Part shown: one piece after another, positions 51,349 through 64,000 of the stretch
How positions within the stretch are numbered: the stretch's first letter is position 1
How the letters are laid out: every line of letters begins with the position of its first letter
Assembly (NCBI RefSeq): GCF_038066715.1
Contig: NZ_JBBUKT010000003.1
Span: 124,001-188,000, forward strand
DNA: 64,000 nt
Source: Luteolibacter sp. Y139
GTDB lineage: Bacteria > Verrucomicrobiota > Verrucomicrobiia > Verrucomicrobiales > Akkermansiaceae
Direction of reading: 5' to 3'
Position numbers and translations under genes: made by a program
Notes under the pieces: model-generated
What the model saw: only the letters and a program-made list of their open reading frames with translations
Told to the model about the DNA's origin: nothing
The model's database searches: none

Positions 51349-51387
51349 GGCGGGCATCCGGGATACCGGGTGCCCGCCTTCTTTTTT
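51349..51387 (+). terminator. intrinsic terminator after the large surface protein gene
   Basis: 13-bp stem (51349-51361 with 51366-51378, one wobble pair), 4-base loop, then a T-run to 51387. The stem also lies beyond the end of the converging FAD oxidoreductase gene. Confidence 0.93.
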
Positions 51388-51399
51388 CCAAATACTAGG

Positions 51400-53616
51400 T
51401 CAGTCGTACTGCAGCCCGTCGATCATGCCGCGGGTCGGGTAGCCGGTCAGATGGTGCGCCGCGAGCATCGCAGAAGTGACGGCGGACTCGACGCATCCGA
51501 TGTCGATGGAATTGCGGCACCAGTCGCCGGAGAAGACCAGGTTGTTGAAGCCGCTTTCCCACGGCCACAGGCGATTCGGCGCGGAGGTATTGGTCGAGAG
51601 CACGTAGCGCTCGCCGGGGTCGATGTTCATCCGGAAGTACTGCCAGTCGAGCCGCTGCTCGACGGTGGCATTCTTGTCGGGATGATAGAGGGCCATCGGG
51701 TCGAGGGTGCTGGTGTTGGGATAACACACGCCCGGCCACAGTGAGGCCTCTTCCTGGATCCACTTCAGGGCCGTCGCCTTCGCCCGCGCCTTCTCCCGTG
51801 CCGGATAACCCGGATCACTGTCGGCCGGGGGCTCGTTCGGATCGTTCGAGGCGGGTCCGCACAGGTAGAGCAGGTGACTGGCACCGGGAGTCGCCTCGGT
51901 CCTGAGGATGTTCGTCGCCTCGATGATGATGTTGAAGGGATCCGGTCCGGAACCGGCCATGGCCAGCTCGCAGAAGTAGTCGTGCCCCTGCCACCCAAGC
52001 GCGTCCTGATTGATGAACCAGAACTGGGCGGCGATGGTGCGGATCGTCTCCGCGGTGCTCACCATCACCCGGAAGCGGGTATCCCTCTTCAGCAAATCCT
52101 TCGCCAAATGCGGATGAGCCGCGGGCGGAATGGCCAGCACCACGTGATCGAATCGCTCGTGCCCATTGGCCGAGGGATCCATGCGATCATACAGCTCCAC
52201 CGTGCCGCTGGTGTGCGTGCTCCAGTGCGACTCCAGCCCGGGATCATCCGCAGGCGGCAGCGTGGCTGGATCCAGCTGGTCTTCCATCGGCTTCTCCGGC
52301 CACACCGGCCAGATGATCGGCGGCTTGTCAGCCTGCGGGACGGCCACCTGCTTGATTGGATCGTAGTGGTCTTTTCCTGCCGCCAGATCGACTTGCCTGT
52401 TGATGCGAATCTTGGTGACGCGATTGCCCAGGGCATTCGATTCGAGTGCTTCGACGCGATGGAAGAATTCAAAGCGGACTCCCCGTTCCTTCAGCACGCG
52501 ATAGAGAGGGATGAACACGCACTCGCCCATGCCGAGGTTCATGCGATGCACGTAGCAGCCCTTGTAGCCGAAGAAGATGCGGAAGAAACCGCGCAGCGCG
52601 GCACCGGCGGCAAAGTTGGCATTGTTCGTATCGTGCGCCTGACCCTTGGAGAAGGCGAACGGCGTATCGTAATAGCCGCGTAGGAAAGGAGACTCCTTCA
52701 CCGTGTGGAAACCCGCGCCATGCATCTTCAGCCACGCGAGGAATTCATGCTGGTCCAGCTGGCGGAACATCTCGTCGCGAAGCAACAGATCGACCAACGC
52801 ACCGCGCAAGCACGTGCGATAAAGATCCGCGATGCACAGCTCGCGGATCTCCGCGCTCGTCTTCGCCCGTTTTTTCATGCGGCGCAGCTTCCAGCCGACG
52901 TAGTCGAGCAGCAGCTTGAAGCCGCGGCCGATCAAGGGCTCGCCATACCAATGACGCTCGTCACCCGCAAGATGCACCAACCGACGGGAGAGGTAGCTCG
53001 CCCAGCCGCTCGGATCGCCGGGATCGACGCCGACCGGACAGGTCATCGCCTTCTGCCACGCCACGCTGCGGCCGAGAATCTTCTCCATCACCTTGAGGAA
53101 TCGCGTCGCGATGGGGCCGAACGCTCCGACCTTGCTGAGGTTGAGCGCGAGGTGGTCGGCCATGCGCCACAGATTCGAACGGATGTCCGGGCACGGCGTG
53201 CCATCACCCGGCTCACCCGCATACTCCGGCAAGGTCATCTTCCACGGCTCCCATTTGTTCGCCGCCTCGTCGTGGTGATAAAAGACGCCTTCGTGCGCCT
53301 TCATGAAGAGATCATCGATCGTATTGAAGCGCCCGATCGTGTAGCCGAGCCGCTGGTGCTCCTCCATCGCCCCGCGCAGCGTCTTGAAGGCATTCTCATA
53401 GAAGCCGAACCAGACATGCGGCCCGTGTTCCTCGCTGCGGTGCTGGTCGCTTTCGCCACGACTGCTGGCCCCCTTGCCACCGAGTCGCCAACCGGTCTGG
53501 TAGAGCGTGACGCGATACTTCGCGCGCAGCTCCGGGGTAGCAGTCAGCCAGTAGGCGGCGGCACATCCCCCGACGCCGCCGCCGAGGATGACTATGTGTT
53601 CACGGGAATCGATCAT
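51400..53616 (-). CDS. FAD-dependent oxidoreductase, phytoene-desaturase/amine-oxidase-like
   Basis: 738 aa from the ATG ending at 53616, opening MIDSREHIVILGGGVGGCAAAYWL, the dinucleotide-binding GxGxxG motif for FAD ADP. A Glu-rich RLGGKGASSRG stretch follows, and the C-terminal FAD motif NNLVFSGDWCRNSIDIGCVESAVTSA is complete. Length exceeds typical phytoene desaturases (about 500). No TM helix. The start codon overlaps the upstream STAND ATPase by 17 bases. Substrate unknown; oxidation of an amine, lipid or polyene ring is suggested by the fold only. Last gene of the four-gene minus-strand run. Confidence 0.85.
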   Translation of the reverse strand: MIDSREHIVILGGGVGGCAAAYWLTATPELRAKYRVTLYQTGWRLGGKGASSRGESDQHRSEEHGPHVWFGFYENAFKTLRGAMEEHQRLGYTIGRFNTIDDLFMKAHEGVFYHHDEAANKWEPWKMTLPEYAGEPGDGTPCPDIRSNLWRMADHLALNLSKVGAFGPIATRFLKVMEKILGRSVAWQKAMTCPVGVDPGDPSGWASYLSRRLVHLAGDERHWYGEPLIGRGFKLLLDYVGWKLRRMKKRAKTSAEIRELCIADLYRTCLRGALVDLLLRDEMFRQLDQHEFLAWLKMHGAGFHTVKESPFLRGYYDTPFAFSKGQAHDTNNANFAAGAALRGFFRIFFGYKGCYVHRMNLGMGECVFIPLYRVLKERGVRFEFFHRVEALESNALGNRVTKIRINRQVDLAAGKDHYDPIKQVAVPQADKPPIIWPVWPEKPMEDQLDPATLPPADDPGLESHWSTHTSGTVELYDRMDPSANGHERFDHVVLAIPPAAHPHLAKDLLKRDTRFRVMVSTAETIRTIAAQFWFINQDALGWQGHDYFCELAMAGSGPDPFNIIIEATNILRTEATPGASHLLYLCGPASNDPNEPPADSDPGYPAREKARAKATALKWIQEEASLWPGVCYPNTSTLDPMALYHPDKNATVEQRLDWQYFRMNIDPGERYVLSTNTSAPNRLWPWESGFNNLVFSGDWCRNSIDIGCVESAVTSAMLAAHHLTGYPTRGMIDGLQYD

Positions 53617-56600
53617 GGCGGGAGGCGAGTTGCTGGAAAAACGCGGCCTCCGCGCTTGCACCACATTTTTCCAATAGGGTCAGTCCATCCTGAAGCCGCG
53701 CCGAAACGGGTGATTTCAGCGCGTGATAACAACGTGCGCGGGCTTTCAAGAAATCCGCTCCCAACCGCTGTGCCGCGCTTTCCGCGGCCACAAACTCCTT
53801 CCCCCCGCCCGGGCCATGCAGGCCACGGGCGCAGTGAAGGATCGCACCACCCAGGGAGAAACTTTTCGCGAAGGCGGCGGCGCGTTTCATGAAACGCTCT
53901 ACCAGCCCGCCGAACATTGGATCGGCTTCCAATTCAGGCGGGCCCCATGAACGCATCTCGCCTAACAGGACCGCGGCATCCGCCAGCAGGAACTGTGTCG
54001 AGGAGACCGGCGGATGCTGGCCGGCCAGGTCCTCCGCATCGCGCAGGCATTCCATCGCCTGCCACGGATTGCCGGAGCGCCACGCACACATCGCGCGCAT
54101 CACGTGGATCGATGACTGCGTGATCGCATCGCCTCCGTGCACCGGCACCTTCTTGCAATGCGCCTCGGCCTCCTTGGTCCCGAGACTGGCAAGGGCATGC
54201 AGGCTGCCCATCATCGCCGCCCACGTCCGCGACTGGCGGTCGGTGCGCTTCGAGGCGGAGTCCTGTAGCACGCGCGACCATCCGGCCGCGCGCTCGAGTT
54301 CGCCGCGGAAATAATCGACGAAGAAGGCATGCGTCGCCGCCTCCTCAACACGGCGGCCATGGCCGTGGGATTTCCAGTAGGCCACATTGCCGGCGGCTCG
54401 CTCGGCCGCTTGAGGCCAGCGTGTCTTGTCGAGGTCGACCAGACAGCCGACGTGCTCGATGTAGGTCTGCTCGGTGTGATCGCCGACCCGCGCGATCATC
54501 CGCCGCGCGATATTGCGGTAGCGCTCCGCCAGCCAGCGTGGCCGCTTGCCGGACAGCGGGCAGGCAATCGCCGCGCACAGCGACGCCAGCATCGCGCTCT
54601 CGCCATTCTTCGACGCGAGGTCGAGAGCAGTGACGCAGCAGTCGGCGGAGCGCTTCTGGTCATTCTGGAAATAGGCGATTTCCGCCAGCATCAGCGCCGT
54701 GCGCGCCGCGCCTTCCCGCACCGGTGAGACGGTCTTGTCGACCCACGGCTTGCCCGTGACGAAGAGCCACATGTGGCGCAGCAGCATGCCCGCCTTGATG
54801 GGGAATACCCCCGCTTCCGGACTCACCCGGTAAAGCACCAGCGCCTTTTCTAACAGACCCGCGGCATCCTCGACCATGCCCCAGTGGAAAGCCGCCTCTC
54901 CCTCGATCTGATAGCGGCGGGCGCGTTGGGCGATCGCAACCGGATCACCCGAGTGCTCGTTCACGCGATCCAGATCCAGCGCCGCCCGCGCTGCCTCGCG
55001 TGCTTCCCGCAAGGCGAAGCGCCCCAGGGCCGCCCGCGCCGCACGGTCGAACAACTCCACCGCCACGTCGTCGCGACCCGACTCACGCGCGTGAAAGGCG
55101 GCCTCGGCAGGCGACAAATCCCGCAGCGGCCGTGCGGTCATCCACTCGAGCGCAGCCCCGTGGCCCATGGCCCGGTCACGATCCGCCATCAAGGACAGCG
55201 CGGCCTCCCGCAGCAAGTCATGGTAGAATGAAAAGCGCCCCGTCGCGCCCGGAGTGGCGACGATGAACTCGCCTAACAGCGGCGATGCCCAGCACGTCTC
55301 GAACTCGATTCCAGGACTGCACGCCTTGGCCGTCGTCTCCGCCTGCTCCTTGGTGAAAGGTTCCCGCCAGATCGCACAGGCACCGAGCAACGAACGCAGC
55401 CGCGGCGAGAGATCGCGGAAGCGCCCGGTCAGCGGCGTCTCGTGCAGCGACTCCGCCGAGGAATCCGCAGGCGCGAGATCAAGCGTGCCACCCATCGCGA
55501 TGAGACGCCGACGCTGGCTCAGCATCGAATGGACTTCCCGCGACACCAGCGGCAGCCCGCCGGAGATGCGGTGGATCTCCTCATTCAGCGCATCCGTGAT
55601 CTCCGCATGTCCGGACAGCTCCGCCAGCAGCTTGCGGTGCTCTTCCACCGACATGGGACCCAGCACGATGTCTTCCGGCACCGGCTGTCCGCGTCGTCCC
55701 AGCACCAGCAGCAGTGGCACTCCGGCATGCTCCAGCGCCTCCGTCACGCCGTGGCTGCCCTCATCCATCCACTGGATGTCATCGATGATCGCCGCACATG
55801 GCCTCCCCGCCACCAACCGCGCCAAGACGCCGGCAATGAACGCGGGAAGGATGTCCTTGTACTGGAGCGGGGAAAGCCCACTCTCGTCCGTGTCGGCGTG
55901 GACCGGCTCGGAAAGGAAGCGCACGAGATTCTTCACCAGCTTCTCGTCCAGGGTCAGCGCCGCGCCGGTTGCCGCGATCGCCGCGGACAAGTCATCGCCG
56001 CCGAATTGACCAAGCAGCGAACGCCATGCCGCAAAGGTGCCGGGCACATCCGTCGGCAGGCAGGACACACGAGCCACCTCCTTGCCCCGCGAAGCGAGCC
56101 AAGCCGCCAGCGCTCCGATCACATGCGACTTCCCCGCACCGGCGGGACCGGAAATCGACACGCGCAGCAGCCCATCTCCCTGCGCCTCGATCCGCTCCTG
56201 CAGCTTCTCCCATAGCAGCGCACGCGCAGGTGCCTCGACTATTTGCAGCGCCGCCGTCCGCACCTCGAGCCGGTGCGCACAGAAGGGCTCGGAAAGGATG
56301 CCCGGCAGGAAACCAATGCGCTCGGCGCGATACGGCGGTGGCAGCTGCGCCGCCGTCCGCTCGTCCATGATCAAGCCATCGAGCCCCATCGCCGCCAGGC
56401 CTTCGAGCAATTGCGACACCGGCTCACTGCCCGCACGCCCGGAGCGCAAGGCCAGCAGCGCCGCGGCGTCCTTTTCTAACAGAACCGTCGCCTCTGCGAG
56501 CAGCACCTTCAGGAGGTCCGCCGCGTCACCAGCCTCACCGGGAAGCCGGGTGCAGGCATCATCCGCTTCATGCCGCCAGATTTCCCAAGCGGACGGTTGG

Positions 56601-56626
56601 TCGGGTATGCGATCTTCTCCGGACAT
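53600..56626 (-). CDS. STAND-type AAA ATPase with TPR-like tail
   Basis: 1008 aa from the ATG ending at 56626, 7 bases after the upstream stop. About 150 residues of helical N-terminus precede a P-loop: Walker A SISGPAGAGKSHV (Gly160-Ser167) and Walker B CAAIIDDIQWMDEGS (Asp282-Asp283), as in signal-transduction ATPases fused to cyclases or MalT-like regulators. The remaining about 600 residues are helical with TPR-like repeats (WLAERYRNIARRM, LERAAGWSRVLQ). No DNA-binding, cyclase or kinase domain is seen. It may sense a ligand and act through a partner encoded in the same operon. Confidence 0.85.
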   Translation of the reverse strand: MSGEDRIPDQPSAWEIWRHEADDACTRLPGEAGDAADLLKVLLAEATVLLEKDAAALLALRSGRAGSEPVSQLLEGLAAMGLDGLIMDERTAAQLPPPYRAERIGFLPGILSEPFCAHRLEVRTAALQIVEAPARALLWEKLQERIEAQGDGLLRVSISGPAGAGKSHVIGALAAWLASRGKEVARVSCLPTDVPGTFAAWRSLLGQFGGDDLSAAIAATGAALTLDEKLVKNLVRFLSEPVHADTDESGLSPLQYKDILPAFIAGVLARLVAGRPCAAIIDDIQWMDEGSHGVTEALEHAGVPLLLVLGRRGQPVPEDIVLGPMSVEEHRKLLAELSGHAEITDALNEEIHRISGGLPLVSREVHSMLSQRRRLIAMGGTLDLAPADSSAESLHETPLTGRFRDLSPRLRSLLGACAIWREPFTKEQAETTAKACSPGIEFETCWASPLLGEFIVATPGATGRFSFYHDLLREAALSLMADRDRAMGHGAALEWMTARPLRDLSPAEAAFHARESGRDDVAVELFDRAARAALGRFALREAREAARAALDLDRVNEHSGDPVAIAQRARRYQIEGEAAFHWGMVEDAAGLLEKALVLYRVSPEAGVFPIKAGMLLRHMWLFVTGKPWVDKTVSPVREGAARTALMLAEIAYFQNDQKRSADCCVTALDLASKNGESAMLASLCAAIACPLSGKRPRWLAERYRNIARRMIARVGDHTEQTYIEHVGCLVDLDKTRWPQAAERAAGNVAYWKSHGHGRRVEEAATHAFFVDYFRGELERAAGWSRVLQDSASKRTDRQSRTWAAMMGSLHALASLGTKEAEAHCKKVPVHGGDAITQSSIHVMRAMCAWRSGNPWQAMECLRDAEDLAGQHPPVSSTQFLLADAAVLLGEMRSWGPPELEADPMFGGLVERFMKRAAAFAKSFSLGGAILHCARGLHGPGGGKEFVAAESAAQRLGADFLKARARCYHALKSPVSARLQDGLTLLEKCGASAEAAFFQQLASRHDRFP

Positions 56627-56633
56627 CTCTGCT

Positions 56634-57614
56634 TCAACTGGTCCAGAGGGTTTTGCCAAGCGACAGGTCGATCTGGAACTCCGATCTGATCGGAGCGCCA
56701 ATCGGCCCGCTTTCCACGCCGATTTTCTTCAGCAGGCGGCTGCTGTACCACTCCGGCACTTCTAGTTCCCAGTCGCCACTCTCACGGCTCATGCTCGTGA
56801 GATGGGAAAACTCGAGCACGCATTCCGCCACCGCACGATAGCAGGCGCGATCCGGATTCTCGACGTCGCGGAACTGCTTCAGGAACACGAACTCCTGCCC
56901 GATCTCCAGCCCCTCGAACAGGTCCACCACTCCCCTGAAGGTGAAATTCAGCACCTTGCGCGCCGGGTTCAGGTTTAGCAAATGGCCCAGCACGCTGTCA
57001 TCGATCTCGCCTAACAGCTCGTCCTTCACCATCTCCGCCAGGCCCTTGCTGAAGGAGTCCGGGATGGAGGCAGGCCCGCTGGCCTTCTCCCGCCGCAGCG
57101 AGAGCAGCAGGCCATTTTTGTCCGTGGTGGCTTCTCCCGGCTTCCGGCACACCTCGGTATGGACCACGCCGCCATCGGGCCCGATCTCGACTTTCCCCAG
57201 CATCTTGGGGAATCCGAAAACCTCACGCCCGCTGATGAGCGCCGGCCCGGAATCGAGGCACAGCACGATCGGGTAAAACTTCAGCTTCGGCAGGGACGGG
57301 AATCCTTCGTTGTCCCACTCCAGGACCGGCAGGGTCACCACCATTTCCGATTCGGACGTGGCTCCCCATGCATCGTGCGGCGGATTGATCGAGCACATCG
57401 ACTTCATGTGCATGAAGATCACGAAGGCGATCGGCAGGGCGGTGAACTTCGGCGTCACGTCTTCTCCCTGCGGCCGCCAATTCAATGTCTCATCCAGCCA
57501 CTGCTGCGCCGCAGCCGTATCGATCTTGCGAACCGCTGACAGCGCCTCGACGCCGGTGATTCGATAAGGGGGACGGAAGTTCAGGTCCGTGTCTCGCTCG
57601 GTATAGGGAATCAT
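56634..57614 (-). CDS. acetoacetate-decarboxylase-like protein
   Basis: 326 aa. Family signature SGREVFGFPKMLGKVE is clear, with the strand LPKLKFYPIVLCLDSGPAL before it. In acetoacetate decarboxylase two neighbouring lysines (YPKKLG) make the Schiff base and lower its pKa; here the first Lys (137) is kept and the second is Met138, so decarboxylase activity may be changed or lost. It may instead bind or isomerise a keto substrate. Second gene of the four-gene run, 81 bases after the response regulator and 7 before the STAND ATPase. Confidence 0.82.
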   Translation of the reverse strand: MIPYTERDTDLNFRPPYRITGVEALSAVRKIDTAAAQQWLDETLNWRPQGEDVTPKFTALPIAFVIFMHMKSMCSINPPHDAWGATSESEMVVTLPVLEWDNEGFPSLPKLKFYPIVLCLDSGPALISGREVFGFPKMLGKVEIGPDGGVVHTEVCRKPGEATTDKNGLLLSLRREKASGPASIPDSFSKGLAEMVKDELLGEIDDSVLGHLLNLNPARKVLNFTFRGVVDLFEGLEIGQEFVFLKQFRDVENPDRACYRAVAECVLEFSHLTSMSRESGDWELEVPEWYSSRLLKKIGVESGPIGAPIRSEFQIDLSLGKTLWTS

Positions 57615-57695
57615 TGGGGGCGGGACGATCCGGCAAGATCGAACATGACAACTAACAAAAACTCCGCACCGCGGCCAATCGAGAACTTTGTAAAC

Positions 57696-58355
57696 CTATC
57701 CCCCACCCTGGGTCGACCTCAGCCAGTCGCGCGCCTTGAGCAATAGCTCGGTCTTGTTCGCGCTGCCGAGCTTGCCCTTCATGTGCTCGATGTGGCTATC
57801 CACGGTCTTGGTGCTGATCTTCAGCCGCAGCGCGATCTCCTTGGTCGAGTGCCCTTCCGCCAGCACGCGGAAGACCTGGTACTCCCGGTCGCTGAAGGTT
57901 TCGATGCCGGTATGGGCGGGCTTGGAAACGCTGCGCATCAGCTCCTCGGTCAGGGCCGGTGACGCGTAGATCCCGCCGGACTCGATCTTGCGGATCGCCT
58001 CGACCACCGCCGAGACCTTGTCACCCTTCATGAGGTAGCCGTTGGCACCGGCCTTGAGCGCCCGCGCACCGTAGTGCAGTTCGTTCTGCATGCTGAACAC
58101 CAGCACCGCACAGGAGGGCGCGGCGTCCTTGATCCGGCGAATGAGATCCAGCCCGTCGCCGTCCGGCAGGGAGATGTCCACCACCGCCACGGCGGGCTTG
58201 CACTTCTCTATCATGACCAGCGCATCTGCCACGGTGTGGACGGTATGCGGCATGTAGCCGGTGAGCATGGTCTCGACCAATGACTTCACCGCCAGGGTGA
58301 TGATCGGATGGTCGTCCACGATGAGCAGGTCTCGCTTGGCTACCGGAGGGGGCAT
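57696..58355 (-). CDS. NarL/FixJ-type response regulator
   Basis: 219 aa: receiver domain (acid pocket Asp14-Asp15, phosphoacceptor Asp60 in VVDISLPDGDG, Lys near 110) and a LuxR-type HTH (FSDREYQVFRVLAEGHSTKEIALRLKISTKTVDSHIEHMKGKLG). No histidine kinase is next to it. First gene of the minus-strand run, so it may autoregulate and control the downstream genes. Confidence 0.94.
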   Translation of the reverse strand: MPPPVAKRDLLIVDDHPIITLAVKSLVETMLTGYMPHTVHTVADALVMIEKCKPAVAVVDISLPDGDGLDLIRRIKDAAPSCAVLVFSMQNELHYGARALKAGANGYLMKGDKVSAVVEAIRKIESGGIYASPALTEELMRSVSKPAHTGIETFSDREYQVFRVLAEGHSTKEIALRLKISTKTVDSHIEHMKGKLGSANKTELLLKARDWLRSTQGGG

Positions 58356-60429: not shown

Positions 60430-61893
60430 CTAGGCCACGATCTCCTTCACCACGTGTCCGTGCACGTCGGTCAGCCGGTAGCGGCGGCCTTGGTGAAGGA
60501 ACGTCAGCGCGGTGTGATCAATGCCCATGAGGTGCAGGATGGTCGCCTGCAGGTCATGCACGTGGACCGCGCCGGGCGTGTAGATGTGCTTGTCGGCCGT
60601 GAGTGGATTGCCGTCGGCATCGGCGATGTTGTAGCCATACGCATCGGTATGGCCGTGGGTCATGCCCGGCTTCACACCGCCGCCGGCCATCCAGATCGTG
60701 AAGCAGCGCGGGTGGTGATCGCGACCGTAGTTGTCCTTCGTCAGCTTGCCCTGCGAGTAGGAGGTGCGCCCGAACTCGCCACCCCAGATGACCAGCGTGT
60801 CTTCGAGGAGGCCGCGCTGTTCCAAGTCACGGACTAGAGCTGCGGAAGCCCGATCGGTTTCCTGGCACTGGCCGGGAATGGCGGACGGCAGGTTATCGTG
60901 CTGATCCCAGCCCTGGTGGTAGAGCTGGATGAACCGCACGCCGCGCTCGGCCAGACGCCGGGCGAGCAGGCAATTCGCCGCGAAGGTTCCCGGCTTCCTA
61001 CTATCTTCCCCGTAGAGCTGGTAGACGCTCTCCGGCTCGCTGGAGAGATCGGTCACGTCCGGCACGCTCGTCTGCATGCGGTAGGCCATTTCGTACTGGG
61101 CGATGCGCGATTCGATCTCGGGATCGAGCTCGCTTTCGAACTGTGCGCGGTTGAGTGCCGACAGCTTGTCGAGCATAGCCCGGCGACCGGACTGGCAAAT
61201 GCCATCGGGATTCGAGAGGTAGAGCACCGGATCCTTCCCCGAGCGGAATTGGACGCCCTGATACTTCGAGTCGAGGAATCCATTTCCCCACAGCCGCGCA
61301 TACAGCGGCTGGTCCCCCTGCCCCGCCGAAACGAGCACGATGAAATCCGGCAGGTTCGCATTGTCCGAGCCGAGGCCATACGATAGCCATGATCCCATCG
61401 ACGGACGGCCCGCGATCTGCGAGCCGGTCTGGAAAAAGGTGATCGCCGGATCATGGTTGATCGCGTCCGTGAACATCGACTTCACGAAGCACAGCTTGTC
61501 CGCGATCGCCGCGGTATGCGGCATGAGCTCGGAGACCCACGCGCCCGATTGGCCGTGCTGCTGGAACTTGAAATGACTGCCCGCCAGCGGGATCGATGCC
61601 TGCTGCGCCGACATGCCGGTGAGCCGCTGCGTGCCGCGAACGTGATCGGGCAAGGGCTGGCCGTTCTTCTCATTGAGCAGCGGCTTGTAGTCGAAAAGAT
61701 CCTGCTGCGCCGGTCCGCCGGATTGGAAGAGGTAGATGATGCGTTTGGCTTTCGGCGCGAAGGTCGGTGGAGCGGCAGCCCGCAGACTTTCACCGAACAT
61801 CGAGGCCAGCGCGGCCCCACCGATGCCCGTGGCTCCGGCCTTGAAGAAGTGGCGGCGCGTTAGCCCGGAAAACGAATCAAGGGTAGGATTCAT
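60430..61893 (-). CDS. exported DUF1501 domain-containing protein
   Basis: 487 aa from the ATG ending at 61893, which overlaps the upstream stop by ATGA; a GTG three codons earlier is also in frame. Tat-type signal [21 protein letters not shown]1501 core motifs: [72 protein letters not shown]. The alkaline-phosphatase-like fold is paired with DUF1553/PSD1 partners in Planctomycetota and Verrucomicrobiota, where they are thought to act on sulfated or complex glycans; the reaction is unknown. Confidence 0.92.
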
Positions 61894-64000
61894 CGGTTCC
61901 ACACGGAAGCGTCGAGGTTTAGGATGGCCGAACAGGTTACGGTGAGCGCGGCGGTTTCGACGGGATCAAGGTCGCGACCTGCCGGGCTTTCGCCTTGGGT
62001 CAGGTATTTCTTCGCGTCCTCGGGGTTGGCTTTGAACTGTTCGAGTTGCTCAGCCTGAAGCTCGCCCAGCAACTTCGCTTCAAGATCAGTAGGAGGACGC
62101 GAGGCGCAGGCAGTGAAGGCCGCCGCAAGCCGTTGTTCAGCGGGCAGCGGCTGCACCTTCGTTGCCAGCGCTCGGGCCGCCTCAAGGAACTGCACGTCAT
62201 TGAGCAGCACCAGCGCCTGCAAGGGAGTGTTCGTCTGCGGCCTGCGGATCGTGCAGACCTCGCGGGTCGGACTGTCGAAGGCCTGCATGTTCGGCAGCGG
62301 CGCGGTGCGCTTCCACACCGAGTAGAGCGAGCGGCGATAGAGATCAGCGCCTTTGGATTGGTGATAAGCGGGCGACATCGAATTCGACTCGCGCCACAGG
62401 TCACCGCCCGGTTGATACGGCGAAACCGGCGGGCCACCATCGCGCTGCTGGAGCAAGCCGGACGATGCCAACGCGAGATCGCGAACCTGCTCCGACGAAA
62501 GCCGCCGCGATGGGCCGCGGGCCAGCAGCCGATTCGAGGGATCGCGCTCCCGAAGATCCGGGCGCATTCTACTATCCTGACCGTAGGTCGCGCTGAGCAC
62601 GATGGACCGGCACAGCCGCTTGAGATCCCAGCCGTGGGAAACGAAGTCGCGCGCCATCCAGTCAAGCAGCTCCGGATGGCTCGGCAGCGACCCTTGCAGG
62701 CCAAAATTGTCGGACGTTTCCACGATGCCGGCACCGAAGAAATTCGCCCAGATGCGATTGACGAACACCCGCGAAGTCAGGGGGTGGCGCGGATCCGTCA
62801 GCCACCGTGCGAGACCGAGGCGGTTGCGCGGCGCATCCTTTGGAAAGGGAATCAGGATCTGGCCGAAGGTATCGCGGTTCACCTCGTTCTCCTTGCCACG
62901 AGGAGCATCGTAGGCACCGCGGGCCAGAATGTGGGACGGCCGCGGAACTTCCGTATCCCGCATCGTCGGGATTTCGAAGATGGGATTCTCGGCACCTATC
63001 ACGGCGGCTCGTGCATTGCGGAGTGATACTAGTGCTTCGCGATAACTCGCATCGGTGGAAAGCACCCATGCGGCCTTGAGCGCCGTCCGTTGCGCGCCGG
63101 AACCTGCAAGCGCCGCCGCCCATTTCGCCGGGTCCTGCAATGCCGCAACCTCCAGAGGCGCGAGCTCGCGCTTCCAGATTCGCAGGTCATCAATCTCGCC
63201 GCCATTAAAGCCGCGGTCGCGGAAGCGCTGCCCGATGACGGCCGGTAAGCCACCGTGATTGTCGAAGGCCGTGGACTTCACCAGCGAGTCCGCCGTGACC
63301 TCGGTTTCCATGGGCTGGCCATCGAGGAACAACCGCAGCCCGCGCGCGCTACTAGATCCATCGTAGGTCCAAGTCACCCGGGCCCATTGATCGCGCGGGA
63401 TTCCCTGGATGGTCTTCACACCGATCGCATTGCCCGGCCAATCACGGACAATCATCGCCTCGATGCGGCCGCCCGCGAGACGCAGCTCAATGCCATTGTA
63501 GCCGACATCCGTTCCCGAGCTGCGATGAAGAACCAGCGTTGAAGCCGGATTGGCCAAAGTATCCCGCAAGACGATATCGACCGTGAATGGATCGCAGCGC
63601 TCAAAGGCGAGTCGGTTCGCCAGATCAACCCCGGTATCGCCATCCAGTCGCACCGCCGCTCCGGACTTGCCCGGCACGCGCGGCAGACCATTGCCATCCG
63701 CATTCGGGGCGCCCGCTTCGTCCTTCAATTGCGAGGCCAGCCCTTCGCCATCGAAGGTGAGATGGGACACCAGATCGACCGCAGGCAGTCCCGGCGACGT
63801 GGCCAGCCATGCCTCGAAGTCACCATCGGATTCCGACATGCGCTTCTCCACGGCAGCGAACGCGGCAACGGCAGCCACATTGGCATCGGTGAGTTTCTTT
63901 TCCTGCCCCTCGTTCGGCAGCAGCAAGGTCGGCGATGGCTGGACGCTGCCGCTGCTATAGAAGCCGCGCTCGGGAATCGAATTGAAGAACGCGCCGAGCG
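61890..64000 (-). CDS. DUF1553 (PSD1)/LamG domain protein, 5' end cut by window end
   Basis: At least 703 aa; the frame is open to the last base, with [12 protein letters not shown], typical of the middle of PSD-type proteins, so the start lies beyond the window. A LamG-like domain ([11 protein letters not shown] ... [24 protein letters not shown] ... [13 protein letters not shown]) precedes the DUF1553 part ([42 protein letters not shown]). N-terminal cytochrome (PSCyt1/2) domains are expected but not visible. Same-strand partner of the DUF1501 gene with ATGA overlap. Confidence 0.92.

Follow-up and report, generated by a model that had tools for sequence, protein, structure and literature searches.

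The window, the whole 64,000-nucleotide stretch that was analysed (G000:C3:124001-188000, in the 7.1-Mb genome of Luteolibacter sp. Y139), carries a block of four genes encoding, in order, a response regulator (RR), a protein of the acetoacetate decarboxylase (ADC) superfamily, a STAND ATPase and a large FAD-dependent oxidoreductase (Table 1). A sequence-only reading had described four co-directional genes with gaps of 81 and 7 bases followed by a 17-base overlap of the STAND and FAD genes, and the open reading frame coordinates bear this out to the base. Upstream of the block lies trpC, in divergent orientation, and downstream a large convergent gene; just past the FAD stop codon sits the strongest hairpin of a terminator scan, with a T-run on the plus strand. 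A scan of the block region for sigma-70-type promoters found no site, which says little, since the host may use other promoters. Also in the window, at 60430-63926, are adjoining genes that resemble by eye the DUF1501/DUF1549 pair that is typical of Planctomycetes and Verrucomicrobia.

Table 1. Features of the four-gene block and of the associated transporter-kinase pair (window positions unless a contig is named).
Feature	Position	Strand	Remarks
RR, NarL/LuxR-type response regulator	57696-58355	minus	219 aa; first gene of the operon; Pfam Response_reg 6e-21 and GerE 1.5e-16
ADC-like, ADC-superfamily protein	56634-57614	minus	326 aa; Pfam ADC 8.8e-12
STAND ATPase	53600-56626 (ATG at 56626)	minus	1008 aa; Pfam AAA_16 8e-11
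FAD, large FAD-dependent oxidoreductase, phytoene-desaturase/HpnE-like family	51400-53616 (ATG at 53616)	minus	738 aa; NAD_binding_8 3e-9, DAO
Hairpin, 13 bp	51349-51378		terminator scan; between the convergent FAD and downstream genes
FadL-kinase pair of the window genome	C3:274861-277339		outside the window

Orthologues of the ADC, STAND and FAD proteins were found in five of the 18 genus genomes (G000, G008, G009, G011 and G012), and no full-length orthologue of any of the three in the other 13. All five carriers keep the order RR-ADC-STAND-FAD as far as their contigs reach, with an RR orthologue upstream of ADC in each; the layout is therefore not due to chance and the block is real. The three large genes, on whose linkage the earlier reading had staked its case, are thus intact in 5/5 genomes within the genus. 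The distribution is patchy: TrpC of the non-carriers G015, G007 and G004 is 92-93% identical to that of G000, and that of the carriers G009 and G012 91-92%. In these two carriers the block lies away from trpC, and its chromosomal sites differ between genomes, which argues that it moves as a unit. A TrpC tree built for counting gains and losses did not resolve the subclade of these genomes, and a comparison of empty sites at trpC found no synteny and was uninformative. A search for FAD relatives in a sample of 388 Verrucomicrobiota genomes gave no match outside the genus at 1e-40, so that acquisition of the block by transfer is likely. A further locus named Luteolibacter (L033) encodes an FAD protein 74% identical to that of the window.

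In G009 the FAD gene is adjoined by genes for a histidine kinase (HATPase_c, HisKA_3) and for an outer-membrane transporter of the FadL type (Toluene_X 8e-41). Orthologues of both, with 75-77% identity, occur in exactly the other four carriers, where they form an adjacent pair ~7 to 93 kb from the block. The kinase orthologue is present in 5/5 carriers and 0/13 non-carriers (p ~1e-4, assuming independent genomes and uncorrected for relatedness, with two of the 13 non-carrier genomes only 61% and 72% complete), and the best FadL match in genomes other than the five carriers is ~35% identical. HisKA_3 kinases commonly pair with NarL-type regulators, and the FadL-linked kinase is therefore the probable partner of the window RR.

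The ADC-like protein matches PF06314 with 45.5 bits, above the curated cut-off of 29.8, and its Schiff-base lysine (Lys137 in the window) is kept in 67 of 71 homologues, so that the enzyme probably works through an imine; the classical decarboxylation of acetoacetate is no more than a possibility. In clostridial ADC a second lysine adjoins the Schiff-base lysine. The sequence-only reading had singled out an "altered lysine pair", and the second lysine is indeed absent (Met138), but this is a trait of the whole family, whose members usually have tyrosine there, and not a peculiarity of the window protein. The folds were assigned using an AlphaFold model of the ADC-FAD fusion protein of Shewanella ANA-3 (L054; pLDDT 80, pTM 0.69). 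Its ADC domain matched several ADC structures, MppR among them (E 6e-11 to 2e-9), whereas the best match of its FAD domain was the plant phytoene desaturase 5mog (E 2e-12, TM 0.72 over the target), and through this homologous domain the window FAD protein is predicted to be phytoene-desaturase-like. A sequence search of the PDB with a profile of the fusion gave no match. The module ADC thus shares with the ADC superfamily (PF06314; ADC, MppR) the fold (E ~6e-11 to ADC structures) and the Schiff-base lysine, and differs in being ~60-80 residues longer, in the replaced second lysine and in having an FAD enzyme as its partner, separate or fused. Similarly, the module FAD protein has the N-terminal FAD motif and the predicted flavoenzyme fold of phytoene and zeta-carotene desaturases and of the hydroxysqualene dehydroxylase HpnE, but is ~250 residues longer, is coupled to an ADC, and falls far below the equivalog cut-offs (46 bits against 283 for HpnE, TIGR03467; carotene-desaturase profiles also match far below theirs).

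The two enzymes were followed beyond the genus by scanning 84,980 species genomes, which yielded at least 583 FAD relatives, and the best 80 loci were studied; these are the best matches and not a random sample, include many close relatives, and were annotated with mechanically called open reading frames and profiles built from few seeds. Among 83 non-genus loci, ADC is fused to FAD in 46, in both domain orders: N-terminally in 35, C-terminally in three and, by inference from a C-terminal extension, probably in eight, a group of which one tested member has a Pfam ADC match of 21.5 bits, below the 29.8 cut-off. An unfused ADC gene lies within 500 bases of FAD in 21 loci and farther away in five, and none was found in 11. 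Fusion in both orders is strong evidence that ADC and FAD act jointly, as one functional unit. A tblastn search of plasmids with the FAD protein matched 11 records from four genera: ADC adjoins FAD in Catenovulum and is near it in Azospirillum, a Qingshengfaniella plasmid encodes both in one protein followed by a cyclase-AAA_16-TPR gene, and in Rufibacter a kinase-AAA_16-GAF-cyclase gene is divergent from FAD. Three loci from Acidobacteriota and Chloroflexota (L063:10034-16454, L072:9971-16317 and L083:10073-16427) have three tandem, mutually divergent FAD paralogues, as if for a multi-step pathway. Sphingomonad loci (L087:13549-15965, L110:6100-8504, L079 and L085) have two tandem ADC genes, accompanied in L087 and L110 by a converging gene whose ~790-aa product has a BTAD domain of the AfsR type (Pfam was run on L087 only). 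Searches of the open-access literature turned up no description of an ADC-FAD/signalling module, which is widespread and apparently undescribed. In Anabaena, the lipid-droplet proteins include both an FAD oxidoreductase and a member of the ADC family (PMC12923008); these are possible relatives of the pair, to which they could not be tied by sequence.

The neighbours of the pair were counted against an internal control drawn from the same loci, namely the genes at a distance of 3-10 kb (458 kb within 3 kb, 819 kb beyond). With p values uncorrected for relatedness, AAA_16 STAND genes numbered 27 within 3 kb and 0 at 3-10 kb in the 83 loci (p 1e-12), 7TMR-DISM receptors 30 against four (p 4e-10) and signalling genes of any kind 73 against 17 (p 2e-18); when the STAND loci are reduced to 14, roughly one per lineage, the enrichment keeps p ~6e-7. 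A signalling gene lies within 3 kb in 54 of the 64 loci with complete flanks. The STAND neighbours come from Pseudomonadota, Cyanobacteriota, Verrucomicrobiota, Acidobacteriota, Myxococcota, Planctomycetota and Bacteroidota, and other loci pair ADC-FAD with kinases. When the partner class was mapped on a 100-row FAD tree, 33 changes were counted, against a minimum of 6 and 65 after shuffling: partner classes are clustered on the tree, yet have been repeatedly exchanged. The three-gene linkage of the earlier reading therefore holds outside the genus for ADC and FAD, which stay together, and not for STAND, which is one of several interchangeable signalling partners. A single-linkage "ATPase" cluster covering 65/88 loci was discarded as inflated by kinase/GGDEF chaining, and domain-profile counts were used instead. 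Uptake genes also occur: FadL adjoins the enzyme genes in a few lineages (Azospirillum, Planctomycetota and one relative within the genus), and TonB receptors lie near them in Alteromonadales. In the Pseudoalteromonas loci L080, L088, L093, L096, L107 and L112, a TonB receptor and a 7TMR-DISM hybrid kinase follow ADC-FAD, and small conserved genes lie upstream, one of them YceI-type, lipid-binding-like by eye. A kinase at L015:2201-3580 and L119:6856-8214 (minus strand), which co-occurs with the module, shows the usual order of domains reversed, with HATPase_c preceding a HisKA_3 segment at the C-terminus.

The window STAND protein consists of an N-domain of ~130 residues, an AAA_16 P-loop NTPase whose Walker A (GPAGAGKS) and Walker B (IIDDIQW) motifs are intact, and a helical, TPR-like C-terminus with weakly supported repeats (TPR E ~0.1); Pfam detected neither an effector nor a DNA-binding domain, and NCBIfam no effector. 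It is the best of 32 AAA_16 matches in its own genome. The N-domain is conserved (GLDGLIMDERTAAQLPPPYRAERIGFLPG) and sits where the Rhodobacterales partners have a cyclase domain, which makes it a candidate degenerate cyclase: its local alignment to that domain is plausible, with an hhalign probability of 0.1, no Pfam match and a model pLDDT mostly <50. Class III cyclase-AAA_16-TPR and kinase-AAA_16-GAF STANDs, which adjoin the same enzyme pair in Rhodobacterales, Myxococcota, Bacteroidota, Cyanobacteriota, Planctomycetota and Azospirillum, resemble the window protein in joining an AAA_16 NTPase to helical repeats; unlike in them, neither a cyclase nor a kinase or histidine-kinase domain could be detected in it. 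Its similarity to the other module STANDs is weak (best E 4e-5), and the Luteolibacter association may therefore be an independent event.

That the STAND protein uses ATP to assemble or chaperone the enzyme complex, and is not a sensor, would suit a gene placed between both enzyme genes and overlapping that of FAD, but appears very improbable: elsewhere, STANDs encoded at this genomic position have signalling outputs, and some fused enzymes have no STAND at all. The alternative offered by the sequence-only reading, a defence-like conflict module in which STAND would be the sensor of an anti-phage system and the enzymes its small-molecule effectors, fared no better. The NTPase model, a weak one, does match Apaf-1/NLR NB-ARC structures (E ~5e-4 to 1e-3; Apaf-1 E 7e-4), an architecture that together with the patchy distribution in the genus would fit defence; against this, PADLOC had no match for ADC or STAND and, for FAD, none better than a desaturase model at E 0.0037, the block encodes no nuclease, protease or pore, the recurrent neighbours are signalling and outer-membrane uptake genes, with housekeeping genes also nearby, and the FAD-ADC core occurs in many loci without STAND, all of which makes this reading barely credible. 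No PADLOC model of a known anti-phage STAND (Avs-like) matched the window protein.

The reading given preference, with about even confidence, is that the block forms a sensor-coupled module whose enzymes act on a hydrophobic compound. FadL would admit a lipid- or isoprenoid-like compound, which the FAD protein would oxidise or desaturate; the ADC protein could form an imine with the resulting keto compound, followed by decarboxylation or cleavage. The STAND protein might serve as an ATP-driven oligomerising switch that senses substrate or product, while the kinase/RR pair would set expression of the operon; in relatives, STAND-cyclase, STAND-kinase or 7TMR-DISM receptors would do the same job. 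The presence of FadL in three lineages and the TonB receptors near the enzymes in Alteromonadales favour the processing of an external compound. Of the "regulated small-molecule pathway" proposed earlier, the ADC/FAD pair thus proves genuine (46/83 fused, 8 of them inferred) and is joined by STAND neighbours in 27/83 loci; its substrate and chemistry are putative.

Two other readings were weighed. The layout of the window operon and its NarL-type RR would also be expected of an ordinary catabolic or biosynthetic operon, in which the signalling neighbours provide transcriptional control and STAND is a MalT-like activator or a scaffold. MalT-type regulators likewise tie a STAND ATPase to a metabolic pathway, but the window STAND differs from them in having no detected DNA-binding domain, the regulator being a separate protein; moreover, cyclase-STAND and 7TMR-GGDEF partners are not local transcription factors and the association spans many phyla, so that this explanation is unlikely. 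Alternatively, ADC-FAD might make or destroy a diffusible lipophilic signal whose receptor is the adjacent STAND, 7TMR-DISM or kinase, with cAMP, c-di-GMP or phosphorylation as the output. The enzyme is constant while receptor types interchange, and family clustering of the neighbours found no other metabolic gene family common across lineages, which would be compatible with a signal-synthase role; many partner output domains are, in addition, second-messenger enzymes (Guanylate_cyc, GGDEF). Nearby FadL/TonB uptake genes suit instead an enzyme that consumes a compound from outside, the RR of the window operon is a DNA-binding regulator, and in none of the loci studied were enzyme and receptor found fused, so that signal synthesis is entertained here as a tentative, somewhat doubtful possibility. 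Equally tentatively, the ADC-FAD proteins may make up a new family of enzymes for lipophilic signals that spans phyla and in which each member is coupled to a receptor of its own, be it STAND-cyclase, STAND-kinase, 7TMR-DISM or two-component; if true, the family would supply a ligand system for the adjacent orphan 7TMR-DISM and cyclase-STAND receptors.

The recruitment of varied signalling proteins by one enzyme pair across phyla points to an unrecognised metabolite that is monitored by many bacteria. For 7TMR-DISM proteins and cyclase-AAA_16-TPR ATPases, receptors with no known input, the sensor-coupled module provides a testable ligand hypothesis, and it likewise offers a hypothesis of function for genes annotated just as "acetoacetate decarboxylase family" and "NAD(P)-binding protein".
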